Assembly: GCA_018970045.1 (NCBI GenBank)
Contig: JAGWXC010000003.1
Span: forward strand, 1-39,398
DNA: 39,398 bases
Direction: 5' to 3'
From: Planctomycetota bacterium
Lineage (GTDB): Bacteria > Planctomycetota > Phycisphaerae > Phycisphaerales > SM1A02
A program made the position numbers and the translations under genes. Numbering within the stretch: position 1 is the stretch's first letter; each line of letters begins with the position of its first letter. Under the pieces are notes generated by a model. The model was not told the DNA's origin. It saw only the letters and a list, made by a program, of their open reading frames with translations, and searched no databases. Below are positions 1 to 1,640 of this stretch, piece after piece.

Positions 1-525
1 GGCCATGGCCGGGCCGAGATCGCTGCCGCCAATGCCGATGTTGATGACATGGCGGATGCGCTTGCCCGTTGAGCCAAGCCACGCGCCGGTGCGCACGGCC
101 GTGCTGAAGTGCGCCATGCGCCCGAGCGTGCCGTGCACGTCAGGCACCACATTGCACCCTTCGACCTCGATCGTCGCGGCGGCCGGTGCGCGCAGCGCGG
201 TGTGCAGCACCGAGCGACCCTCGGTCCAGTTCAGGCGCGCGCCCGCGAGCATGGCTGCGAAGCGCTCCGGCACCTGACGTTCTCGAGCGAGCTCGAGCAA
301 GAGGGCCATCGTCGTCGGCTGCATGAGCTGCTTGGACCAGTCGAGCGTCCATCCGGCGCCTGTGGCGGTGCAGCGTGCGGCGCGTCCGGGCTCAGCGGCG
401 AACGCAGCGCGCAGGTCGAGAGGCTCGATGTGCTGACGATGTGCGAGGACGGCCTTCCACGATGCGCAGTCGCACAGTCGGCTGCGAAGCGGAAGGGAAC
501 AGGCATCGGTTGTCGCACGCGACAT
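1..525 (-). CDS. pgi: glucose-6-phosphate isomerase, N-terminal part (cut by window edge)
   Basis: Interconverts glucose 6-phosphate and fructose 6-phosphate in the cytoplasm (glycolysis, gluconeogenesis). The 175 visible codons read open to the first base of the window. They contain two family signatures: NWTEGRSVLHTALR near residue 97 and INIGIGGSDLGPAM near residue 163. The TEGR region and the GIGGSDLGP loop help form the sugar-phosphate site. The C-terminal two thirds lies outside the window. The ATG is taken at 525 because a TACAGT hexamer ends six bases before it; no Shine-Dalgarno is present. It is divergent from transaldolase, so two sugar-phosphate enzymes share a 50-bp control region. 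Identity is secure. Confidence 0.93.
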   Translation of the reverse strand, partial: MSRATTDACSLPLRSRLCDCASWKAVLAHRQHIEPLDLRAAFAAEPGRAARCTATGAGWTLDWSKQLMQPTTMALLLELARERQVPERFAAMLAGARLNWTEGRSVLHTALRAPAAATIEVEGCNVVPDVHGTLGRMAHFSTAVRTGAWLGSTGKRIRHVINIGIGGSDLGPAMA

Positions 526-575
526 GGCCTGACTGTACCCCGGTCATGGCCAGCGCCGCGGGTACAGTTGATCCC
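526..575. promoter_or_regulatory. divergent pgi/tal promoter region with 9-bp inverted repeat
   Basis: The 50 bp between two start codons holds a perfect 9-bp inverted repeat: ACTGTACCC at 532-540 and GGGTACAGT at 560-568. Each arm contains a TACAGT on its own strand (532-537 minus, 563-568 plus). Each hexamer lies six (pgi) or seven (tal) bases from the ATG, as expected of -10 boxes for leaderless mRNAs. No good -35 is visible on either side. The arms could also be operator half-sites. Confidence 0.6.
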
Positions 576-1640
576 ATGAAGCAGACCGCCTTGCTCAATC
601 TCCTTGGCCAGAGCCCCTGGCAGGACAACATCACCCGCCGCATGCTCGACGATGGCTCGCTCGCGCGCACGATCGACGAGCTCGGCATCACGGGCCTGAC
701 GAGCAACCCGACGATCTTCGAGAAGGCGATCGGGTCGGGTTCCGAGTACGACGCGCAGGTCAAGGCGTGCGCAGCACGCGGGCTCGATGCCGATGCAACC
801 TTCTTCGAGCTTGCGCTCGAGGATCTCTGCCGAGCGTGCGATCTGTTCCTGCCGATCCATCGCCGTACCGGGGGTGTGGATGGCTGGGTGAGCCTCGAGG
901 TGAGCCCGCTCCTGGCCAACGACACGCAAAGCACGGTCGAGGCGGCGGTGGCGCTGCACGCGCGGGCGGGTCGCCCGAATCTCTTCATCAAGGTGCCGGG
1001 CACGCCTGAGGGGCTGCCGGCGATCACCGAGCTCATCGCTCGTGGCATCCCGGTCAACGTGACGTTGCTCTTTGACGTGGCGCAGTACGAGGCCACGGTG
1101 CTGGCGTACATCAAGGGGCTGGAGCAGCGCGTGGCAGCGGGGCTGGCTCCGGACACCTGCAGCGTGGCAAGCGTCTTCATCAGTCGGTGGGACAAGGCCA
1201 CGGCGAGCCTGCCCGAAGGCCTGCGCAACCGGGTCGGCATCGCGATGGGGCGAGCGTGCTACGACCGGTTCCTGGATCTCTTCTCGGGCGATCGGTTCGA
1301 GGCGCTGCGGGGCAAGGGCGCGCGGCCTCAGCGCCTGCTCTACGCGAGCACGGGCACGAAGGACCCGGCTCTGCCGAAGTCGTTCTATGTCGAGGCGCTC
1401 TGCAGCCCGGGCACGGTCAACACGATGCCTGAGGATGCTCTGCATGGCTTGGCCAATGCGGGCACACTCAAGGCATGCTTCGTGCCCGGTGATCCGGCGA
1501 CCGCCGAGGTGTTGAAGGGAGCGATGGCGCACGGCATCGATCTCGCCAAGCTGGCCCATCAGCTCCAGACCGAAGGTCGCGATGCCTTCATCGCGAGTTG
1601 GCATGCGCTCCTCAAGAGCATCCAATCCAAGCGTGGATAA
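576..1640 (+). CDS. tal: transaldolase
   Basis: Transfers a dihydroxyacetone unit between sugar phosphates in the non-oxidative pentose phosphate pathway; cytoplasmic. The 354-residue protein carries the N-terminal GITGLTSNPTIFEKAI block (binding strand of the barrel), a central VNVTLLF, and NLFIKVPGT in which Lys139 is the expected Schiff-base lysine. Length and motifs fit the longer transaldolase type found in actinobacteria and cyanobacteria rather than the ~320-residue E. coli type. The open frame extends upstream, but ATG 576 is chosen because it starts the conserved region and has TACAGT seven bases before it. Divergent from pgi, which supports a shared carbohydrate role. Confidence 0.94.
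   Translation: MKQTALLNLLGQSPWQDNITRRMLDDGSLARTIDELGITGLTSNPTIFEKAIGSGSEYDAQVKACAARGLDADATFFELALEDLCRACDLFLPIHRRTGGVDGWVSLEVSPLLANDTQSTVEAAVALHARAGRPNLFIKVPGTPEGLPAITELIARGIPVNVTLLFDVAQYEATVLAYIKGLEQRVAAGLAPDTCSVASVFISRWDKATASLPEGLRNRVGIAMGRACYDRFLDLFSGDRFEALRGKGARPQRLLYASTGTKDPALPKSFYVEALCSPGTVNTMPEDALHGLANAGTLKACFVPGDPATAEVLKGAMAHGIDLAKLAHQLQTEGRDAFIASWHALLKSIQSKRG

Follow-up and report, generated by a model that had tools for sequence, protein, structure and literature searches.

Does a perfect inverted repeat between two divergent metabolic genes mark an operator that serves both, or is it no more than the promoters themselves? The question is raised by a contig of a Planctomycetota bacterium of the order Phycisphaerales (JAGWXC010000003.1, assembly GCA_018970045.1), of which positions 1 to 39,398 were analysed (the window, 39,398 nucleotides), and in which the divergent genes pgi and tal are separated by a gap of 50 bp. 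A sequence-only reading had described a perfect 9-bp inverted repeat in this gap, with 19 bp between the arms; it had assigned each arm to the gene on its side as a -10 box, and had suggested that a dimeric regulator might contact both promoters and so link glycolysis and pentose-phosphate flux. The features of the locus are the following.

4-525, minus strand: N-terminal part of pgi (glucose-6-phosphate isomerase), truncated by the contig edge; ATG at 525-523; PF00342, E 6e-35 (the full-length orthologue in genome G004 has 551 aa).
532-537, minus strand: putative pgi -10 hexamer TACAGT, 6 nt before the ATG; unchanged in 9/9 genomes of the genus and always 6-7 nt from the start codon, the distance of the genome-wide TANNNT-6/7-ATG peak.
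538-540, no strand: outer CCC of the left arm, which reads GGG ahead of the pgi -10; a promoter flank that varies in the genus (GGG in six genomes, otherwise GGC, CCG and GGA).
541-559, no strand: spacer of 19 bp separating the arms (its length in the genus is 19, 20, 21 or 30 bp), without a recognisable -35 hexamer.
560-562, no strand: outer GGG of the right arm, a promoter flank (GGG in 8/9 genomes).
563-568, plus strand: putative tal -10 hexamer TACAGT, 7 nt before the ATG; the ATG is 6-7 nt away throughout the nine genomes, eight of which have TACAGT and one TAGAGT.
576-1640, plus strand: tal (transaldolase), predicted to be leaderless; ATG at 576-578; PF00923, E 1.6e-69; NCBIfam NF002881 above its cut-off.

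The repeat itself is exactly as it had been described: GGGTACAGT (560-568) is the exact reverse complement of ACTGTACCC (532-540), the arms being separated by 19 bp and in a register of 28 bp, and the pair occurs only once in the 2.49 Mb assembly. We conclude that the gap very probably consists of two independent leaderless promoters placed back to back. Both would be of the sigma70 type, their only recognisable part being the TACAGT -10 hexamer 6-7 nt before the start codon; transcription would begin at or beside the A of the ATG, giving an mRNA without a Shine-Dalgarno leader, and both pgi and tal are accordingly predicted, in their start sites as in their translation, to be leaderless. The inverted repeat would then arise from a coincidence, hexamer and G/C-rich flank being the same in the two promoters.

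The assignment of each arm to the gene on its side draws on a genome-wide signal. In bacterial leaderless genes, a TANNNT motif lies about 12 bp upstream of the start, with middle bases that carry little information in high-GC genomes (PMC3160421), and the signal has been confirmed by reporter tests in Deinococcus (PMC12340547). The genome-scale statistics reported here are pattern counts over whole genomes and over fetched stretches, with genes called by simple open reading frame filters rather than by a gene finder. Within 400 kb of G004 (68.5% GC), 357 TANNNT sites were followed by an ATG (required to open a frame of at least 80 codons) at +6 in 45 cases and at +7 in 18; most other distances gave about 3 cases each. 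Over whole genomes, TANNNT-N6-ATG was counted 246 times in G000 and 285 times in G004, compared with 28 and 34 for the control TANNNT-N15-ATG; for the hexamer of this locus, TACAGT-6-ATG occurs seven times in G000 and its reversed control not at all. A profile of 79 leaderless-type sites shows the hexamer, with C or G preferred at the third base, and contains neither a -35 box nor the GGG. The pgi and tal hexamers, at 6 and 7 nt, stand at this leaderless distance, as they do (at 6-7 nt) in all nine genomes compared, and the claim that each arm supplies a -10 box is supported. Two other readings of the gap were rejected: a canonical -35/-10 promoter, since a scan of the gap found none and the genome-wide profile has no -35; and a terminator or RNA hairpin, since a search for terminators gave none and neither arm falls within an expected transcript.

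An alignment of the gap over nine genomes of the genus (this genome and eight further ones) separates what is conserved from what is not. Of the 18 arms, 17 have TACAGT as their hexamer and one has TAGAGT, always 6-7 nt from the start codon, whereas the outer bases differ at pgi in three genomes (flanks GGC, CCG and GGA) and at tal in one (GTGTAGAGT). Both 9-mers are identical in five of the nine genomes, among which G000 and G008 share identical gaps, and the symmetry is broken in the other four. The distance between the 9-mers is 19 bp in four genomes, 20 bp in three, 21 bp in one and 30 bp in one. The spacing to each start codon is thus held while that between the arms varies, which argues for promoters and against a phased site for a dimer.

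Conservation of the outer bases, which the sequence-only reading would have counted in favour of an operator, is no higher here than at unrelated leaderless promoters. For bases -3 to -1 the mean pairwise identity is 0.68 at pgi and 0.92 at tal, compared with 0.92 at 17 other orthologous leaderless promoters, a rough baseline in which many ortholog groups have two members only; for the middle bases of the hexamer the values are 1.00, 0.92 and 0.88. The pgi and tal flanks are therefore not outliers above the leaderless-promoter baseline. Some weak extra constraint on the arms is possible, because five genomes have matching 9-mers in both arms and nearly every arm retains TACAGT. As a separate observation, orthologous leaderless promoters (G000-G007; loci L032-L039 and stretches of G004) have an identity of 0.92 at -3 to -1, against 0.70 at -6 to -4 and 0.66 after the hexamer: the three bases upstream of the -10 are conserved promoter by promoter, yet have no genome-wide consensus.

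How unusual is the symmetry? The window contains 18 inverted repeats of 9 bp with a spacer of 10-30 bp, where a first-order Markov model predicts 14.4 (sd 5.7), and a bare repeat of this kind is not significant in so GC-rich a stretch. Of these, only the pgi-tal repeat has a TANNNT within the right arm, and 40 simulations produced none, so that it is the -10-like content of the arms that is non-random, and not their symmetry. Random pairs of -10 boxes from the genus share the same hexamer in ~6% of cases and the same 9-mer in 0.42-0.47% (about 0.4-0.5%), three G000 contigs containing GGGTACAGT having been left out because they would bias the flank frequencies. Nine close divergent leaderless pairs were counted in 400 kb of G004, and 298 kb of G000 gave 11 (a few of them overlapping or doubtful); their hexamers are mostly unlike, and scaling from these stretches gives roughly 60-90 such pairs per genome. 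At the above rate of 9-mer sharing, 0.25-0.45 chance coincidences would be expected per genome, and one was found. The window itself holds two more close divergent promoter pairs of leaderless type (10643/10692 and 33043/33098), whose hexamers are unlike.

Two promoters packed this tightly may still affect each other. The footprint of RNA polymerase extends from about -55 to +20. The pgi and tal hexamers are only 25 bp apart, so that polymerase at one promoter should cover the other, and the two probably, or at least plausibly, compete for it. Work on bidirectional promoters has found that interference can arise when transcription increases, separate divergent promoters being a different class (PMC12825309). 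It is improbable, though the least so of the alternatives, that the mirrored arms add to the two promoters a weak operator or a polymerase-competition switch that, with no 5' leader involved, sets the balance between pgi and tal transcription; if they did, these 50 bp would be a minimal element controlling how flux is divided between glycolysis and the pentose-phosphate pathway. That the mirrored sequence is a switch common to both genes is unlikely because near relatives keep the boxes and not the spacing or the full symmetry, and we regard it as probably no such switch.

Slightly less credible is the proposal that GGGTACAGT is a special extended -10, read by an alternative sigma factor or defining a small regulon, and common to pgi, tal, a sugar-transport ATPase gene and cheB. 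The genome contains five copies of GGGTACAGT, four of them 6-7 nt before a start codon: the pgi and tal arms account for two, and the other two precede the start codons of cheB (GTG) and of a sugar-ABC-type ATPase gene (ATG), each by 6 nt, while the fifth is at a distance of 33 nt from the ATG of a gene whose leader is purine-rich. Throughout the genus, orthologues of cheB and of the ABC-ATPase gene retain the 9-mer in their promoters, as would be expected of a special element; but flanks of leaderless promoters are generally conserved one by one, TACAGT promoters elsewhere in the same genomes carry many others (CAC, CCA, CCG, CGG and CGC), and the 9-mer is not enriched, its five copies comparing with ten for the reversed control.

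An operator in the strict sense, with both promoters under the joint control of a dimeric regulator bound to ACTGTACCC and GGGTACAGT, has a little less still to recommend it. The locus, where metabolically related genes diverge from an inverted repeat, does resemble the operators of dimeric repressors and activators, the symmetry is perfect in more than half of the genomes, the pair is unique in the assembly, and the same 9-mer precedes the sugar-ABC-type ATPase gene and cheB. At pgi-tal, however, it is the promoter geometry that is conserved and not the arm spacing or the symmetry, and the regulator is hypothetical. Shifts of 1, 2 and 11 bp in arm spacing within the genus would rotate and displace the half-sites, with the distance to each ATG remaining fixed; the symmetry fails in four of the nine genomes; and the outer bases do not exceed the mean of the 17 leaderless promoters. 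The 9-mer elsewhere stands alone, acting as a -10 box: no ACTGTA was found within 60 bp upstream of the displayed GGGTACAGT sites at other genes, the orthologues of these genes in the genus retain the single 9-mer without a second arm, and no two-arm site of a regulon was found.

More distant relatives likewise lack the arrangement. Divergent pgi-tal pairs were found at 18 further loci in other genera of the same family, with gaps mostly of ~40-200 bp and unrelated sequence, and no trace of the inverted repeat is present in these 18 gaps; the hexamers before tal are TATACT, TACCGT, TATCCT or TAGACT, lying 7-9 nt from the start or with a longer leader (start codons at these loci are approximate). 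The gene pair is conserved in the family and the repeat is not. The divergent order is kept over many genera (loci L012-L030) with intergenic DNA that is unrelated, and in several more distant genomes pgi and tal are often co-directional. Of what the sequence-only reading had proposed, then, the -10 boxes stand, in view of their leaderless position and the genome-wide signal, and the dimeric operator falls with the variation in spacing and flanks; nor is there evidence at this locus for a shared factor coupling glycolysis to the pentose-phosphate pathway.

A bidirectional promoter, a single symmetrical -10 element firing both ways, is very improbable: the class is widespread in prokaryotes, and divergent starts, mirror-image -10 elements and a likely mutual steric exclusion make pgi-tal resemble it, but such promoters need a shared -10 element and usually have start sites 10, 18 or 23 bp apart (PMC12825309), whereas the pgi and tal hexamers are separate and their expected start sites 51 bp apart. 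Elsewhere, divergent leaderless-type starts with overlapping hexamers do occur (G004 contig C7, 117974/117997 and 618/637; L119, 1946/1969), and their start codons are separated by 23, 19 and 23 bp, distances near the 18 and 23 bp of bidirectional promoters.

Two independent leaderless promoters thus remain the preferred reading. The position, conservation and genome-wide prevalence of the promoter type can be read directly from the DNA, and it is like that of leaderless genes in Actinobacteria and Deinococcus-Thermus (PMC3160421, PMC12340547) in having TANNNT 6-7 nt before the ATG, a degenerate middle, a high-GC setting and no recognisable -35; it differs in belonging to a Planctomycetota genus, in the back-to-back placement of two promoters and in being predicted from sequence. 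TANNNT-6-ATG is strongly in excess in G000-G008, G032, G035, G052, G077 and G088 (321 in G088, against 14 at the control spacing).

As an operator, the pgi-tal repeat is ordinary and of little importance. The genus-wide comparison shows instead that, where leaderless genes are tightly packed, -10 boxes that mirror each other can look like a palindromic operator, a pitfall when regulons are predicted from motifs in high-GC genomes. A limited literature search found no description of leaderless initiation in Phycisphaerae. The promoter counts suggest that leaderless initiation is widespread in this order of Planctomycetota, and the strength of the sequence evidence for it, in this Phycisphaerae genus and in many of its relatives, merits transcript mapping.
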